DNA from: Flavobacterium beibuense F44-8
GTDB taxonomy: Bacteria > Bacteroidota > Bacteroidia > Flavobacteriales > Flavobacteriaceae
NCBI RefSeq assembly: GCF_000769915.1
Contig: NZ_JRLV01000009.1
Coordinates: 62,001-126,000 of the forward strand
Reading direction: 5' to 3'
DNA: 64,000 bases
Shown here: positions 25,126 to 44,800 of the stretch, in pieces
Layout of the letters: every line of letters begins with the position of its first letter
Numbering within the stretch: position 1 is the first letter of the stretch
Position numbers and translations under genes: made by a program
Notes under the pieces: model-generated
What the model saw: only the letters and a program-made list of their open reading frames with translations
What the model was told of the DNA's origin: nothing
Database searches by the model: none

Positions 25126-25596
25126 ATGTTTACCCAGATTTCATGGACAGACTACCTGTTGGCGGTCTCCATACTACTAGCTATTTATTATTTGTTTGTT
25201 GGGGTACGGTATTTTTCCGGTGACCTTAAAGCCCTGTTGGCAGGAAAACGAAAACTTACCTTAAAGACATCTGGTTTTCCGCAAAGTGAACCCTTGCAAA
25301 CTGAAGTTTCAGAAGATATTTCGGTAACTACAGATGAAGATAGCGATGATGAATTCGCAGAAGTAGAACACCTGATCGAAAAAGTGAAAGCCATGATTGC
25401 TGATGCGCTCGGCAAACAACTTGTCAAGGAAGAATTTAGGCAGTACCTACGCCTTGTCCTTAAAGAATTTCCCTCCGTAAAAACATCCGTACTCCGTCCT
25501 TCGGTCAACGAACTGATTGTATCGGAGTGCGAGAAACAAGGGATTGGTGCCTTTAATGAAGATGAAGTGGATGCGTTGTGGAGTGATGAAAGGTAG
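25126..25596 (+). CDS. ICE membrane protein upstream of traE
   Basis: 156 residues with one N-terminal membrane helix at about 9-27, an acidic low-complexity linker (residues 65-85) and a C-terminal helical soluble domain. No known catalytic motif. Its position directly ahead of the traE leader and its orientation suggest a part of the transfer module, perhaps the assembly platform or its regulation. Function not recognised. Confidence 0.75.
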   Translation: MFTQISWTDYLLAVSILLAIYYLFVGVRYFSGDLKALLAGKRKLTLKTSGFPQSEPLQTEVSEDISVTTDEDSDDEFAEVEHLIEKVKAMIADALGKQLVKEEFRQYLRLVLKEFPSVKTSVLRPSVNELIVSECEKQGIGAFNEDEVDALWSDER

Positions 25597-25604
25597 CAAT
25601 CCCG

Positions 25605-25693
25605 GCGGAACGTGTTTCCCTGTTCAACCCCGGGCGTAAGGCGATGTGTGACAGAATGGATGGGTCAGTAACGGCGAAACCGTTCCGCTTTTT
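25605..25693 (+). ncRNA. Structured leader RNA with terminator-like end before traE
   Basis: GCGGAACG (25,605-25,612) and GTTTC (25,614-25,618) pair with GAAAC (25,676-25,680) and CGTTCCGC (25,681-25,688): a 13-bp helix with one bulged T, followed by TTTTT. Inside, further short complementary segments (CC-GTT with AACGG; ACCC with GGGT) suggest a multi-branched fold. It fills the gap between two transfer genes, so it is either a terminator/attenuator controlling traE onward or an independent small RNA. I do not recognise it as a named riboswitch. Confidence 0.6.
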
Positions 25694-25738
25694 ATTTCAA
25701 AAAAAGCTTTTGATTTTAAACTTTAATACATGTGAGTT

Positions 25739-26077
25739 ATGAAAATGTGCAGCAAGAAAACAACAAAGTTTAACCGTAAAAAGGTGATCACCATTTGTGC
25801 CGCTATGGTATTATTAGCCATTCAATACAGTGCTTATGCACAGGATGGTATTGAGGGGATCAATGAAGCCAACACCAAAGTACGCAGCTACTTTGCCGCA
25901 GGCACCAACCTGATGTATGCCGTGGGAGCTATCCTTGGCTTAATCGGGGCGGTCAAGGTGTATCAGAAATGGAACAATGGCGATCAAGATACCGGCAAAG
26001 TGGCCGCCGCCTGGTTTGGTAGTTGTATTTTCCTGGTGGTTGTGGCTACCGTGATCCAGTCGTTCTTCGGTATCTAA
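25739..26077 (+). CDS. traE: Conjugative transfer protein TraE (DUF4134, pilin-like)
   Basis: 112 residues. A signal peptide ends after an alanine-rich stretch near residue 34 (YAQDG), followed by two hydrophobic segments (about 58-72 and 90-108). This layout and the MYAVGAILGLIGAVKVYQKW motif mark the TraE/DUF4134 family of Bacteroidota conjugative elements, which occupies the place of a VirB2-like small subunit. It opens the transfer operon after a structured leader. Unlike in CTnDOT, traF is not next but lies 6 kb downstream. Confidence 0.92.
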   Translation: MKMCSKKTTKFNRKKVITICAAMVLLAIQYSAYAQDGIEGINEANTKVRSYFAAGTNLMYAVGAILGLIGAVKVYQKWNNGDQDTGKVAAAWFGSCIFLVVVATVIQSFFGI

Positions 26078-26089
26078 AATCCCTGAAGT

Positions 26090-26518
26090 ATGCAGACAAA
26101 ATTAAAAGAAAAGTTGTGGGCGTTTATCGTCCACAACAATCCTGAATTGATGTTCAATTTGCAGGAAGACTATTCGGTGACCAACTATCTGGATTCAAAA
26201 GTAAAGGACATTATGCCTTTGGCGGAACAGTTACTTTCTGAAAACCGACCCGGCTATATTGTGGAAGAATTATGCCTGGAGCAGATGACTGAAGAACTAA
26301 AACCTTCCCGTTACCACTACCTCCTTTCCATACTTGAGGAAGAATTTACTGCCGACTATGAGCGGTTACGGGAAAGCGGGACGCTCACCTATGAAGTCGT
26401 CAACCTGATTGCTTACTGCAAGGACATTTTTAACGGATATGGATTCAATGCAGCAAATGAAGAGGACAGGCAGCTACGGCACACTGTCATCGGACAGGTA
26501 CAAGAGTACCTGAATTAA
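26090..26518 (+). CDS. DUF1896-like ICE protein
   Basis: A 142-residue soluble helical protein that resembles the DUF1896 family found in Bacteroidota mobile elements (TKLKEKLWAFIVHNNPELMF at the start, LRESGTLTYEVVNL in the middle). Function unknown. It follows traE by 12 bp and precedes the giant methylase/helicase, with which this type of protein is often linked; it may be an accessory factor (inference). Confidence 0.75.
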   Translation: MQTKLKEKLWAFIVHNNPELMFNLQEDYSVTNYLDSKVKDIMPLAEQLLSENRPGYIVEELCLEQMTEELKPSRYHYLLSILEEEFTADYERLRESGTLTYEVVNLIAYCKDIFNGYGFNAANEEDRQLRHTVIGQVQEYLN

Positions 26519-26597: not shown

Positions 26598-29500
26598 GTG
26601 GATATGGCTTACAATATTTCAGAAAAACTACAGGACAATATCAGGGCGATCCGGATCGCCCTGAGCTATCAAGACGGAAAGGAACTAAGTCCGGATGAAG
26701 TTTCCAACCTGAAAAAATTCTCAGGTTTTGGAGGTATCAAGGCTATCCTATACCCTTATGGCACACAGGAAGAATGGTCAGCTAATGGGGCTACCAAAGA
26801 AGACCTGAAACACCATGCAGGTATTATGGAGCTTCATGAGCTGCTAAAGGAAAATTACAGCGAAACTCAATATAGGAATATCATTTCTTCTTTGCGTAAT
26901 AGTGTGCTGACCGCCTTTTATACCCCACAGGTAGTTCCCGAAACTTTATATACTGTCCTAACAGCCCAAAACCTGCAACCTAAACGCTTGTACGAACCTT
27001 CGGCAGGTTCCGGTGTTTTTATCAGTGAAGCTGTAAAGGCTTTTCCTGAATTGGAACAGATTACCGCCGTCGAGAAAGATACCCTTTCCGGACTGGTACT
27101 CTCTACTATCAACGGTACACTGCCTGTTCCGGCAGAAACACATATCACCGGTTTTGAAGAAACTCCGGTAACCGAAAATTCCAGCTATGACCTAATGGTC
27201 AGCAATATTCCGTTCGGTAATTTTTCGGTATATGATGAGGTTTATCCCGATAAAGCACTATCCGGAAAAATACACAATTACTTTTTTGCCAAAGGCTTGG
27301 ACAAACTGGCTGATGGCGGTCTCATGGCTTATATTACCACCGATGCTTTCCTAAATAGCCCATCCAATCAAAAAGCAAGGGAATACCTATTTGGCAAATC
27401 GGATTTTATAAGCCTATCCGTTATGCCTGATAACCTGATGAAGGATACCGGAAATACCGAAGCTCCCAACCACCTGCTGATTGTTCAAAAGAATGCAACA
27501 AAGAAGACCCTATCCGAAGAAGAAGCCTTACTGGTGACTACCGTATCATTAGAGAATAAATACGGAACTTATCATATCAATAGCTATATCCAACAGCACC
27601 GGGACATCATTACGGGCAATATCCTCCAACCGGGTAAAAATCAATACGGGCAGGCACACGAAACCATATGGCAACAAGGCGACCTCAATGACATTCGTAA
27701 AAAACTTGGACAGACGATTACCGAAGGTTTTAATGCCCGCTTAAATCGGGAGCGTTATTTCCAAAGTCAATCCTTACCAAAAGAAAAACAGGAATTTGAT
27801 GGCGGGAAGCTCACCTATCTTCCGATGCCTGAGAATAAAGCAGAAACCGTTTCGGTACAGTTAGGGCTTTTTGATACCGCTCCGGCAGAACAAATTAACC
27901 GTGCCATAGCCTATATCAACCCTTTGGATGCCACCGTTGTTCGAAAAGAAAGCGTACGGATAATCAGTACCATTCGTACTACTGATAAGCCTACACACGA
28001 GAGTATCGTGCTACTAGCGGCCAAACAACAAAAATCCAATCGCTACCTATATAAACTGTATTCCAACGTCAAGGAGATTGATTATTTCTCTGCCAACTGG
28101 ATGGATGCACGCTTATTGGGGCATGAACTGCAAAACCTGTCCGGGGAGTTACAAGGATTTGCCCATACATTTACCTATGAAGGCGACCAAACCTTAGAAG
28201 GAATATTTCAATTAAACGGGCAGGCAGCACGTCCCTTTACCGATATACAACCCTTTCATAAAGAAGGTACGCTGATCGTCTATCAGGGACAAGTGGGTAC
28301 ACTTTCCGAAATTGATAATGATTTTAAAAATGCGGTGTTCCAACCCCTGGGTATGCAAACCGATAAGCGTTTCTATGAACACTATATAACCCTTCGGGAT
28401 GAGTACCTAAAAATCTCCGAAAAAGAAACTACAAGAACTCCGGTTCCCCAAACCGAACGGGATGAGTTGAACCAGCGTTATGATCAATTTATTTCCCAAT
28501 ATGGGCAGTTAAACAGCCAAGGTAACCGTAGACGCATATTGGAAGATACCGCTTTCGGTTTGACCATGTTATCCTCTTTGGAACGCAGGGAAGGTGAACA
28601 TTTTGTCAAGTCCGATATGCTGACCAGCACTGCTCAGGTATCCGTAAAACGTTTTGTCACCGATGACCCGATTGAAGCCCTGGCACACAGCCTGAACGAT
28701 ACCGGAAAGGTGGATATTGGGTTTATTGGTGCAGCCATGGGATTGGAAGAACCGGAAACGATTGCCCGTTTGGGCGAACATATTTACTTGAACCCGGTTA
28801 GCAAAGATTGGGAGACCGCAGATCAGTTCCTGAGCGGTAACGTAGTGGAAAAATTGCGACAGGCAAAACAACAAACGGCTACTGAAAATGATATCCCACA
28901 AGCAGAGCGAAGCCTAACCGCTTTGGAAAAAGTTCAACCCGAACGCATCCCTTTCGAACTATTGGATTTTAATCTGGGGGAACGCTGGATTCCCGTAAGC
29001 TATTACGAACGTTTTGCAGCGGAACTCTTCGAGCAACATACGGATATCAATTATTTTCCTTCCCTGGATGCCTTTAAGGTAACCACCGGGATGAACACCA
29101 AAGTAGCCCGGGAATTTGCGGTTACTCCGAAAAGCGGACGGACTACTTACGGTTATACCTTGCTCGAACATGCTTTGGAAAATACAACACCGTTTTTTAC
29201 CTATGAGGTATCCGTTGGGGATGGCAAAAGCATACGGGTTCCCGATAATGAAGCCATTCAACTGGCACATCAAAAAATCGACCAGATACGCAACGGTTTT
29301 ATAGACTGGCTCAAGGAATTGCCGGATACCGATAAAAAGCATATCGAAAACCTGTACAATGACACTTTCAATTGTTATGTACTGCGGGAATTCGACGGCA
29401 GTCACCTGAATTTCCCGGGACTCGATAAAAAGGCTTTGGGTATTGAAGATTTGTACAGCAGTCAGAAAAATGCCGCCTGGCGCATCATCCAAAACAGGGG

Positions 29501-32126
29501 CGCACTGATCGATCACGAAGTGGGGTTGGGCAAAACCCTTACCATGATTGTTTCCGCTCAGGAAATGAAACGTCTCGGTATTGTCCAAAAACCGATGATC
29601 CTTGCCCTGAAAGCTAATATCAATCAAATTGCGGAAACCTATCGCAAAGCCTATCCCCATGCCAGGATATTGTCCCCGGGGCAAAATGATTTCACCCCAG
29701 CTAAAAGGCTGCGCTTATTCCACGAAATCAAAAACAACAACTGGGATTGTATCATCCTGACCCATGACCAGTTCGGTAAAATACCACAGTCTCCGGAAAT
29801 GCAGCAACAGATCTTCCAGACGGAACTGGATCATATCCAGCGTGACCTGAATACTGTCAGGGAGTTGGGCGGGGCGATTTCCAAAAAGATGCTCAAAGGA
29901 CTGGAAATACGAAAAAACAACCTCGAAGGAAAATTAAAAACGGTACTCAAAGACATTGAAGAAAAGAAAGATACGGGCATCAACTTTAAGGAAATGGGTG
30001 TTGACCATTTGTTTGTGGACGAATCCCATAAATTCAAAAACCTGACCTTTACCACACGTCATAACCGAGTGGCCGGACTGGGGAATATGGCGGGGAGCCA
30101 AAAGGCACTCAACATGCTTTTTGCCGTGCGCACCTTGCAGGAACGCTTCAATTCCGATCTCTGTGTGACCTTCTTATCAGGCACACCGATTTCCAACAGC
30201 CTGACGGAAATGTACCTTCTTTTTAAATACCTGCGACCTAAAGAAATGGAACGTCAGCGTATTGAAAATTTTGACGGCTGGGCAGCGGTATTTGCCCGTA
30301 AAACCACGGACTTTGAGTTTAGTGTCACCAATGAGATCATTGCCAAAGAACGCTTCCGCCATTTTATCAAAGTTCCTGAACTGGCTTTGTTCTATAACGA
30401 GATTACCGATTACAAAACCGCCAGGCACATCAACCTGGATAAACCGGAACTGAGTGAAACCCTGGTCAATATTCCGCCTACACCGCAGCAATCGGTCTTT
30501 ATAAAAAACCTAATGCAATTTGCCAAGACCGGTAATGGAGAACTGATCGGGCGTGGCAGGCTGACCCCGGAAGAAGATAAAGGGCGTATGCTTATAGCAA
30601 CCAATTACGCCAAGAAAATGGCAGCGGATATGCGATTGGTAGATGACTGGAAATACGGAGACCACCCGGATAACAAGGTGAATACCGCCGCAAGAAAGAT
30701 TGCTGAAATTTATCACCACACCCAACCTCATAAAGGGACGCAGATTGTTTTTTCGGATATAGGGACACCCAAACCGGATCGGTTTAATATTTATGATACC
30801 CTGAAGGAAAAACTGGTGAGGGATTTCCATATCCCTGTCTCGGAAGTCACTTTTATCCACGACTGGACGGATCGCAAGAAACCGGAACTCTTCCGTAAAA
30901 TGAACCGGGGTGAAATCCGCATCCTGCTTGGAAGTACGGAAAAAGCGGGTACCGGTTTGAATGTACAGGAGCGTGTGGTAGCGATGCACCACCTGGATAT
31001 TCCCTGGAAACCTTCGGAACTGGAACAGCGCAATGGCCGTGGGGCGAGACAGGGTAACCGTATTGCCAAAGAGCATTACGGCAATCAGGTACAGAATTTT
31101 GTCTATGCCGTGGAGCAATCGCTGGACAACTACAAATTCAACTTGCTTAAAAACAAACAGACCTTTATTTCCCAAATGAAAAACAGTGAACTCAATGTCC
31201 GTACCATTGATGAAGGGGCTGTAGATGAAAAAAGCGGTATGAACTTCTCCGAATACATCGCCATCCTTTCCGGGGATACCTCCCTTTTGGAAAAAAGCAA
31301 ACTGGAAAAGAAAGTGGCGGTAATGGAAAGCCTGAAACATTCCCATTTTAGGGAACTCACCCGTCATAAATACCAGTTGGAAAAACTGCAAAACGATCAT
31401 GCTTCCACGGAAAAAACACTCGGAAAGCTTTCTGCCGATGTAGCCGTGTATAAAGACCGTCTCCAGATGACCAAAGAAGGTACTAAAGCTAACCCCATTC
31501 AATTGGACGGGAAAACTGGTCGGGACAGTGAAGCTATAGGCAAACACATTATCCAGTTGTATCAAAACTGGAAGCCAAAAGCCGGGCAGCACGAAGAAAA
31601 AATTGGTAACCTGTACGGTTTTCAGCTATACATCCGCAGGCAACAGGAAGCCTACGAAGAAAACGGATTGTTCGAATACCGGTATTCCAATAGCTTCTAT
31701 GCACAAAGGGAAAGTGAGGGGATTAAATATACCTACAATAACGGTTTGCCCAATACGGATAATCCGAAACTGGCAGCACGGCATTTTTTAAATGCCATTG
31801 ACCGGGTGGAGCATCTTAAAGAGCGGTATGAACGGAACCTTTTCGATCTGAAAACCGAACTTCCCAAGATTGAAAAACTCACCTCCAAACCTTTTACCAA
31901 GGAGCACGAGCTGCGGGAACTGAAAACAGAACTCGCCAATCTGGAACGGCAGATCGCCATTAAGATTCAGGAAAACCAGTTAAAGCAACACCAACCCAAT
32001 GAACCGGATGAAGAACAAACCCCGGTCATCAAACTCGGGGAACATCAAACAAACGGGCATGCCGTCAAAGAGTCTGTAGTAGCTGCTTCGGCATCGGAGC
32101 GTCCCCGTAGCAGGATGCGATTGTAA
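26598..32126 (+). CDS. Giant N6-methylase/SNF2-type helicase of conjugative elements
   Basis: 1,842 residues. An N-terminal methyltransferase-like domain shows the SAM motif YEPSAGSG near residue 132 and SNIPFG near 205 in the place of NPPF; that variant is, to my knowledge, usual for this family. A central SF2 helicase has Walker A VGLGKT near 976 and VDESH near 1,140. The C-terminal lobe carries the motif VI pattern QRNGRGARQGN near 1,475, followed by coiled, charged segments. Related phage and ICE proteins are linked to DNA protection and anti-restriction. An ATG two codons later (26,604) is an alternative start. It separates traE from traF. Confidence 0.9.
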   Translation: MDMAYNISEKLQDNIRAIRIALSYQDGKELSPDEVSNLKKFSGFGGIKAILYPYGTQEEWSANGATKEDLKHHAGIMELHELLKENYSETQYRNIISSLRNSVLTAFYTPQVVPETLYTVLTAQNLQPKRLYEPSAGSGVFISEAVKAFPELEQITAVEKDTLSGLVLSTINGTLPVPAETHITGFEETPVTENSSYDLMVSNIPFGNFSVYDEVYPDKALSGKIHNYFFAKGLDKLADGGLMAYITTDAFLNSPSNQKAREYLFGKSDFISLSVMPDNLMKDTGNTEAPNHLLIVQKNATKKTLSEEEALLVTTVSLENKYGTYHINSYIQQHRDIITGNILQPGKNQYGQAHETIWQQGDLNDIRKKLGQTITEGFNARLNRERYFQSQSLPKEKQEFDGGKLTYLPMPENKAETVSVQLGLFDTAPAEQINRAIAYINPLDATVVRKESVRIISTIRTTDKPTHESIVLLAAKQQKSNRYLYKLYSNVKEIDYFSANWMDARLLGHELQNLSGELQGFAHTFTYEGDQTLEGIFQLNGQAARPFTDIQPFHKEGTLIVYQGQVGTLSEIDNDFKNAVFQPLGMQTDKRFYEHYITLRDEYLKISEKETTRTPVPQTERDELNQRYDQFISQYGQLNSQGNRRRILEDTAFGLTMLSSLERREGEHFVKSDMLTSTAQVSVKRFVTDDPIEALAHSLNDTGKVDIGFIGAAMGLEEPETIARLGEHIYLNPVSKDWETADQFLSGNVVEKLRQAKQQTATENDIPQAERSLTALEKVQPERIPFELLDFNLGERWIPVSYYERFAAELFEQHTDINYFPSLDAFKVTTGMNTKVAREFAVTPKSGRTTYGYTLLEHALENTTPFFTYEVSVGDGKSIRVPDNEAIQLAHQKIDQIRNGFIDWLKELPDTDKKHIENLYNDTFNCYVLREFDGSHLNFPGLDKKALGIEDLYSSQKNAAWRIIQNRGALIDHEVGLGKTLTMIVSAQEMKRLGIVQKPMILALKANINQIAETYRKAYPHARILSPGQNDFTPAKRLRLFHEIKNNNWDCIILTHDQFGKIPQSPEMQQQIFQTELDHIQRDLNTVRELGGAISKKMLKGLEIRKNNLEGKLKTVLKDIEEKKDTGINFKEMGVDHLFVDESHKFKNLTFTTRHNRVAGLGNMAGSQKALNMLFAVRTLQERFNSDLCVTFLSGTPISNSLTEMYLLFKYLRPKEMERQRIENFDGWAAVFARKTTDFEFSVTNEIIAKERFRHFIKVPELALFYNEITDYKTARHINLDKPELSETLVNIPPTPQQSVFIKNLMQFAKTGNGELIGRGRLTPEEDKGRMLIATNYAKKMAADMRLVDDWKYGDHPDNKVNTAARKIAEIYHHTQPHKGTQIVFSDIGTPKPDRFNIYDTLKEKLVRDFHIPVSEVTFIHDWTDRKKPELFRKMNRGEIRILLGSTEKAGTGLNVQERVVAMHHLDIPWKPSELEQRNGRGARQGNRIAKEHYGNQVQNFVYAVEQSLDNYKFNLLKNKQTFISQMKNSELNVRTIDEGAVDEKSGMNFSEYIAILSGDTSLLEKSKLEKKVAVMESLKHSHFRELTRHKYQLEKLQNDHASTEKTLGKLSADVAVYKDRLQMTKEGTKANPIQLDGKTGRDSEAIGKHIIQLYQNWKPKAGQHEEKIGNLYGFQLYIRRQQEAYEENGLFEYRYSNSFYAQRESEGIKYTYNNGLPNTDNPKLAARHFLNAIDRVEHLKERYERNLFDLKTELPKIEKLTSKPFTKEHELRELKTELANLERQIAIKIQENQLKQHQPNEPDEEQTPVIKLGEHQTNGHAVKESVVAASASERPRSRMRL

Positions 32127-42989: not shown

Positions 42990-44732
<1,743 letters not shown>

Positions 44733-44800
44733 CAATCTGCTCCGTTACCACTCCGGCACCTCTCCTCTTTGCTCAAGACGTTAAGCCTTTTTTGCGGTTG

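Follow-up and report, generated by a model that had tools for sequence, protein, structure and literature searches.

Upstream of traE in Flavobacterium beibuense F44-8 lies a conserved RNA element of about 90 nt, here called class A, in which a long closing helix (P1), an inner helix (P2) and conserved apical nucleotides are followed directly by a U-tract. Based on the comparisons described below, we consider terminator function likely, and our preferred reading, which we hold at a probability of about one half, is that the element would be a cis-acting, intra-operonic intrinsic terminator or attenuator that probably limits the amount of transfer machinery made. The DNA analysed (a stretch of 64,000 nt, referred to as the window) is located on contig C2 of a 3.8-Mb genome, and the features used in the text are listed here in window coordinates.

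25126–25596, plus strand: upstream gene of the conserved block, 156 aa (open reading frame list and tblastn homologues)
25602–25693, plus strand: class A RNA element (covariance models R1 and R2, 87.0 and 85.3 bits; covariation)
25604–25618, plus strand: P1 closing helix, 5' arm, with 25613 bulged
25620–25625, plus strand: P2, 5' arm
25646–25657, plus strand: apical motif alpha, GUGUGACAGAAU
25657–25671, plus strand: apical motif beta, UGGAUGGGUCAGUAA
25668–25674, plus strand: P2, 3' arm
25676–25689, plus strand: P1 closing helix, 3' arm
25689–25693, plus strand: U-tract (TTTTT) directly 3' of P1
25694–25738: A+T-rich spacer between the element and traE
25739–26077, plus strand: traE (DUF4134; PF13572, 1.4e-38)
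26113–26137, plus strand: second hairpin with a perfect 10-bp stem at the start of the DUF1896 ORF (26090–26518), found by folding

The 156-aa product of the upstream gene matched no Pfam or NCBIfam model, and the gene stands where traD does in CTnDOT-type elements and may be its counterpart; TraE we take to be a putative pilin. From the element onward, transfer genes continue on the same strand for about 17 kb. The sequence-only reading had placed a leader RNA ahead of this operon and had it gate the operon as a whole. However, the same-strand upstream ORF stops 7–8 nt before P1 begins, nothing in the sequence marks a transcript head there, and the conserved block has one gene or more on the 5' side of the element, so that neither claim is supported. 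A gene of ~400 aa is found some 240–250 nt 5' of the 156-aa gene in two related loci (L023, L057), and the window and locus L005 have one more ORF between the two. The promoter consensus used for our scan, TAnnTTTG, was absent from all 29 class A spacers and from the plus strand of the window between 22501 and 42900, and occurred once in the 29 upstream stretches of 700 nt. With the consensus missing from so long a part of the window, the scan is uninformative about a promoter between the element and traE. We regard transcription of traE from upstream as likely. When 25126–25738 was used as a DNA query against a plasmid collection no match was obtained, and the upstream protein matched one plasmid in that collection, over 28% of the protein length.

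Elsewhere in the window, the ORF between DUF1896 and traF (26598–32126, 1842 aa) has a methyltransferase-like N-terminal part and an SNF2-type helicase C-terminal part, and its hits, against models for DISARM DrmD and for methyltransferases, score well below the NCBIfam cut-offs. At 42990–44765, a serine recombinase ORF (end at 44732) overlaps three tRNA genes on the opposite strand (44503–44765) and its last residues are tRNA read antisense; this overlap is possibly the end of the mobile element that carries the transfer genes.

In the minimum-energy fold, P1 comprises 14 bp with one bulge (25604–25612 and 25614–25618 with 25676–25689), of which 13 bp fall inside 25605–25738, the region in which the sequence-only reading had noticed a long closing helix. 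The arms are separated by 57 nt, and the first U of the TTTTT run (25689) lies within the outermost pair. The interior, thought to be multi-branched, folds instead as a nested stack with no branch points, and although the T-run indeed follows the helix directly, it does not lie immediately before traE as had been stated, since 50 nt separate the helix end from the ATG (25739). As a single sequence the fold is unexceptional: z is −1.16 for 25605–25738, with 27 of 200 shuffles as good, and −1.51 for 25602–25690, with 13 of 200. Single-sequence folding was therefore dropped as proof and the observation was tested by comparison. The 3' end combines a stable helix with a directly following U-tract on the gene strand, as in intrinsic terminators. 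Its loop is longer than 3–8 nt, and a consensus search passes the helix over: a simple terminator scan for loops of 3–8 nt, which returned 24 sites in the stretch scanned vs. 21.7 expected, left P1 unreported and picked up only a short 3' sub-hairpin at 25670–25684. A short loop is a feature of textbook intrinsic terminators and no strict requirement.

When GTDB genomes were scanned with TraE, 310 stretches were found to encode a relative; the best 80 were taken as loci, and in many of these the DNA preceding traE contains a recognisable relative of the element. Together with the window they make up 81 sources (the window and L002–L081), which were divided into 40 of class A, 16 of class B, 7 of class C, 8 of class D and 10 others. 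Class A was called by a match to model R2 at E up to 0.01, one of the 40 being cut by a contig end, while classes C and D were assigned by eye and carry no statistics. Model R1 was built from 22 sequences, and R2 from 29, obtained by reducing 39 class A sequences at 95% similarity.

Covariation among homologues, proposed from the outset as a check, supports the structure. In a structure-blind MAFFT alignment of the 29 non-redundant class A sequences, 88.7% of cells are paired and 17 of the 23 pairs have changed on both sides (75 cells), as compared with 41–57% of cells, 5–10 pairs and 11–25 cells in slid controls; none of 500 shuffles attained any of the five covariation measures. The signal is strongest in P1 and P2, where 16 of 18 pairs show double-sided changes. 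Support is lower for P3, with 80.5% of cells paired and double changes in 1/3 pairs, and for P4, with 77.6% and 0/2. An alignment fitted to the model, which has 43 distinct rows and leans toward the structure, gives double changes in 17/18 pairs of P1/P2 and in 2/3 of P3, with 84.9% of cells paired in P3 and 78.0% in P4. By comparative evidence the inner arm, P3 and P4, is thus weakly supported. One P2 pair is U-G in 15 of the 29 rows, and such pairs point to RNA and not to a DNA cruciform.

Conservation extends beyond the helices. Of the 29 class A sequences, 27 have a U-tract, defined as five or more T within 8 nt, a density reached by 2.4% of the 8-mers taken from the 120 nt on the 5' side. 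The distance from the upstream stop codon to the start of the helix is 5–10 nt in 24 sequences (overall −1 to 32), and the traE ATG is located 30–50 nt past the helix end in all 29. Highly conserved unpaired positions include the apical GUG within motif alpha (95% conserved over the 43 distinct rows). Among the 81 sources, R2 gave 40 matches at E up to 0.01, every one of them at the place before traE; R1, run at E up to 10, also matched elsewhere, the best such match being L029:412–503 at E 0.02. Hence a structured RNA with a terminator-like 3' end at a fixed place before traE is conserved across relatives, as judged by sequence comparison. Helix and comparison confirm the original observation in part; its branching, leader position and T-run adjacency needed correction.

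Whole genomes were then scanned with R1 and R2 without requiring traE. With R1, 296 genomes yielded eight places at E up to 2.7e-6, each with an upstream-gene homologue on its 5' side and traE on its 3' side, and six weaker ones (E 0.19–0.88) with neither neighbour gene. With R2, 349 genomes of the window's own family yielded three strong places adjoining traE, two of them already in the R1 set, and a further place (E 0.001) lacking both neighbours. The 195 genomes of another family yielded three at E up to 3.2e-5, one already counted, all flanked by the same two genes. Pooled, the 11 distinct strong places all lie between these two genes, and in each of them the homologue 5' of the element was identified by tblastn. 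Class A nevertheless is a minority form among DUF4134 places, as far as scans whose filters lose weak matches can tell: of the 38 such places in the 296 genomes, searched with R1 at E up to 1, it precedes 8, and of the 94 in the 195 genomes, searched with R2 at E up to 0.01, it precedes 3. In the window's own family, the DUF4134 gene occurs in 6 of 349 genomes, three of which have a strong R2 match.

Class B, a simpler hairpin, occupies the same place before traE in 16 of the 81 sources, and a tblastn homologue of the upstream gene lies 5' of it in all seven loci tested. In the class B alignment (17 sequences, with L122 added), 97.5% of cells are paired and 27 are double-change cells, vs. 1–7 in slid controls. 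For four measures no shuffle out of 500 reached the observed value; the number of pairs altered in both arms (5 of 12) was attained by 43 of the 500. All 16 sequences from the 81 sources have a U-tract, here five or more T within 10 nt, vs. a background of 21%. Of the 27 places that model R3 matched in 195 genomes at E up to 0.01, 17 lie before DUF4134, among them all 12 with E up to 1.3e-6; the other ten have no DUF4134 there. The model also hits class B elements on their reverse strand (E 2e-4 to 2e-3), because a hairpin is nearly its own reverse complement. When run on 20 class A sources at E up to 1, R3 matched none of their elements; A and B are therefore not one fold.

Despite this difference in fold, the two classes share loop sequence. 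The 11-nt core GATGGGTYAGT, located within motif beta, occurs in 15 of 163 loci (12 distinct places), always between the upstream gene and traE, and is carried by class A elements closely similar to that of the window (5 distinct places, in 8 loci) and by class B (7 loci); the majority of class A sequences are without the exact core. A joint k-mer score of class A and B loops lies above all 40 letter shuffles at two controlled word lengths, by a moderate margin (0.130 vs. a shuffle maximum of 0.110, and 0.114 vs. 0.079). With one mismatch allowed and both strands considered, the window's own genome holds a single further copy of the 15-nt motif, in DNA with no visible link to transfer. The sequence-only reading had suggested a response to a ligand or protein, and the conserved loop nucleotides fit recognition by a putative partner.

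Inspection by eye extends the picture to other lineages. Hairpins of classes C and D stand at the same place, mostly lacking a U-tract, and termination therefore cannot be the function in all lineages. Some lineages have plain hairpins before traE with no clear U-tract, and other DUF4134 genes are preceded by different hairpins or by none visible. In eight loci (L048, L049, L055, L063, L066, L067, L069 and L112) the 5' arm of such a hairpin, again with no clear U-tract, lies inside the end of the upstream gene. A separate DUF4134 lineage (L105, L108, L109) has another nested hairpin at the start codon (ACACCUUUGUU...CCGC..GCGG...AACAA..U.AA.GUGUU), with similar ones in L110, L114 and L129. The spacer before traE measures 154–202 nt in three Bacteroidales plasmids and has no Rfam match at gathering thresholds; the traD–traE spacers of about 200 nt in L132 (3793–3994) and L133 (3819–4018) look alike and may hold further structured RNA. 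A Hymenobacter plasmid has a 47-nt spacer with no strong fold.

The folding-energy profile, computed as differences from 12 shuffles per profile window in 66 non-redundant loci, is lowest at −140 to −41 relative to traE, where the mean is −4.2 kcal/mol and 23% of loci fall below −8, followed by +340 to +439, just 3' of the gene (mean −3.7, 24% of loci), and by a third dip at +220 to +319, inside traE (mean −3.3, 9% of loci). The dip 3' of the gene takes in the 10-bp hairpin of the DUF1896 ORF. In the window, none of 200 shuffles is as stable as this hairpin at 26113–26137, and of the 25 non-redundant class A loci compared, 15 have one of the same type, with 10 bp, 3' of traE. In L026 and L035, by eye, paired silent changes preserve both the stem in the DUF1896 ORF and the protein.

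We propose that a polymerase passing beyond the upstream gene would produce the hairpin (P1, P2 and the inner arm) and then the U-tract, where a fraction of polymerases would stop, so that the upstream gene could be made without the mating apparatus, while traE and later genes would depend on read-through. If traE is transcribed from upstream, the terminator can be only partial or conditional. We hypothesize that read-through is regulated: the apical nucleotides (GUG...AGGA, GAUGGGUYAGU) may be the recognition site for a factor that changes it, and the presence of the same loop nucleotides on two scaffolds suggests such a factor. The hairpin might in addition be disturbed by the ribosome that completes the upstream gene 7–8 nt ahead of it. 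The further proposal of a conjugation-specific conditional terminator, in which two scaffolds display the same loop (core GAUGGGUYAGU, often with GUG..AGGA) as the dock for a putative factor switching read-through, is tentative and in our view less likely than not. The simplest known kind of recognising factor, a NusG paralogue, is absent at the sensitivity of our search, since the genome has one NusG-family gene, on contig C13 and not the window's C2, with no paralogue; this leaves no UpxY- or RfaH-like partner at that sensitivity.

The main and serious rival to a terminator, although we consider it doubtful as the whole explanation, is a stability or processing element that segments the mRNA: the hairpin would shield the upstream message at its 3' end, a processed traE message at its 5' end, or both, TraE would be made in excess of its neighbours, and the second hairpin would close the segment. 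The energy dips flanking traE, the DUF1896-ORF hairpin, which recurs in most class A loci compared and here lies far below shuffles, and the class C and D hairpins lacking a U-tract all agree with segmentation. Alone, however, it leaves unexplained both the U-tract, which is nearly constant in class A and constant in class B, and the conserved loop motif, and the dip inside traE means that the dips are not confined to the borders. The loop nucleotides conserved beyond the helix, together with a location at the entry of the long run of transfer genes, would also fit a processive antitermination RNA of the put/EAR kind, whose fold modifies RNA polymerase to read the long tra region, and conjugation operons with internal terminators and RNA-containing antitermination are known (conAn; the part of PMC8955417 available to us). 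This we judge unlikely, as the element's own 3' end is terminator-like and Rfam holds no match.

Its size, its 3' end and its conserved loop would likewise suit a small RNA that is processed from the 3' UTR of the upstream gene, or forms its end, and acts in trans through the loop, and the accessible part of PMC7366714 reports intra-operonic sRNAs of Bacteroides able to end at terminators. That strong matches lie directly before traE (11/11 for class A, 12/12 for class B) suggests action in cis instead, and the single further motif occurrence in the genome shows no visible transfer link; we think a trans-acting RNA quite improbable. The conditional terminator of the sequence-only reading, if taken to have two states, would be a riboswitch or attenuator of the classical type, in which one fold excludes the other. 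Each arm of P1 can indeed form a short local hairpin that excludes the helix, the 3' one being the sub-hairpin returned by the terminator scan, but pooled they reach 75.0% of cells paired vs. 75.6% in shuffles, and 4 double-change cells vs. 5.6 expected. With no covariation beyond that of shuffles in the two hairpins tested, the two-state antiterminator was rejected, and we give very little credence to such a switch. A chance hairpin or functionless spacer would account for a single-sequence fold that is not unusual; it is hardly credible given the covariation, fixed place, U-tract and motif conservation, and in practice is refuted by the class A covariation in the MAFFT alignment.

Rfam 15 covariance models gave no match within 25560–25760 at E up to 5; at gathering thresholds, only three tRNAs were found in the window, and the element was unmatched in the loci searched, so the family lookup suggested with the first observation supplied no identity. 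The published literature that we searched contains no description of it, although a 2017 survey of 224 candidate RNAs, known to us by title, might hold one; traE does not occur in the main text of PMC2864571 or PMC8040213. As far as Rfam 15 and this search show, the element is a candidate for a new RNA family. To our knowledge, transfer control in Bacteroidota conjugative elements is understood mainly from CTnDOT. An element at the entry to the mating-apparatus genes offers a defined 90-nt target for asking how the machinery is held low or how the ratios of its parts are set, and bears on whether internal terminators are general in large conjugation operons. The loop common to two scaffolds makes a putative binding partner directly searchable.

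Several known systems invite comparison. With the put and EAR RNAs (EAR being, we assume, the epsC motif RF01735), the element shares conserved loops and, putatively, an effect on termination in cis, but it has no Rfam match and a terminator-like 3' end. RteR, a trans-encoded 90-nt sRNA of Bacteroides, is linked with discoordinate expression of the CTnDOT tra operon (PMC7366714, PMC9299015, in the parts available). The two cases have in common a tra operon of Bacteroidota and, putatively for the present element, unequal gene expression and an RNA-based mechanism, whereas RteR is encoded in trans, a distinction drawn from its description in those parts. On the Bacillus plasmid pLS20, the accessible part of PMC8955417 describes more than 20 terminators, with the ConAn1 protein and the conAn2 RNA at the start of the operon, and discusses terminators inside Gram-positive conjugation operons, which would stop spurious transcription from expressing the machinery. 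Terminators within a conjugation operon, here putative, are the common feature, while the present element is one recurrent structure with no known partner, as compared with that account of pLS20. Finally, like an intrinsic terminator within an operon, the element places a helix directly before a U-tract between two same-strand genes, and does so in many conjugative elements, but it differs in following the preceding stop codon after a short gap and in enclosing 57 nt that have structure and conserved sequence of their own.
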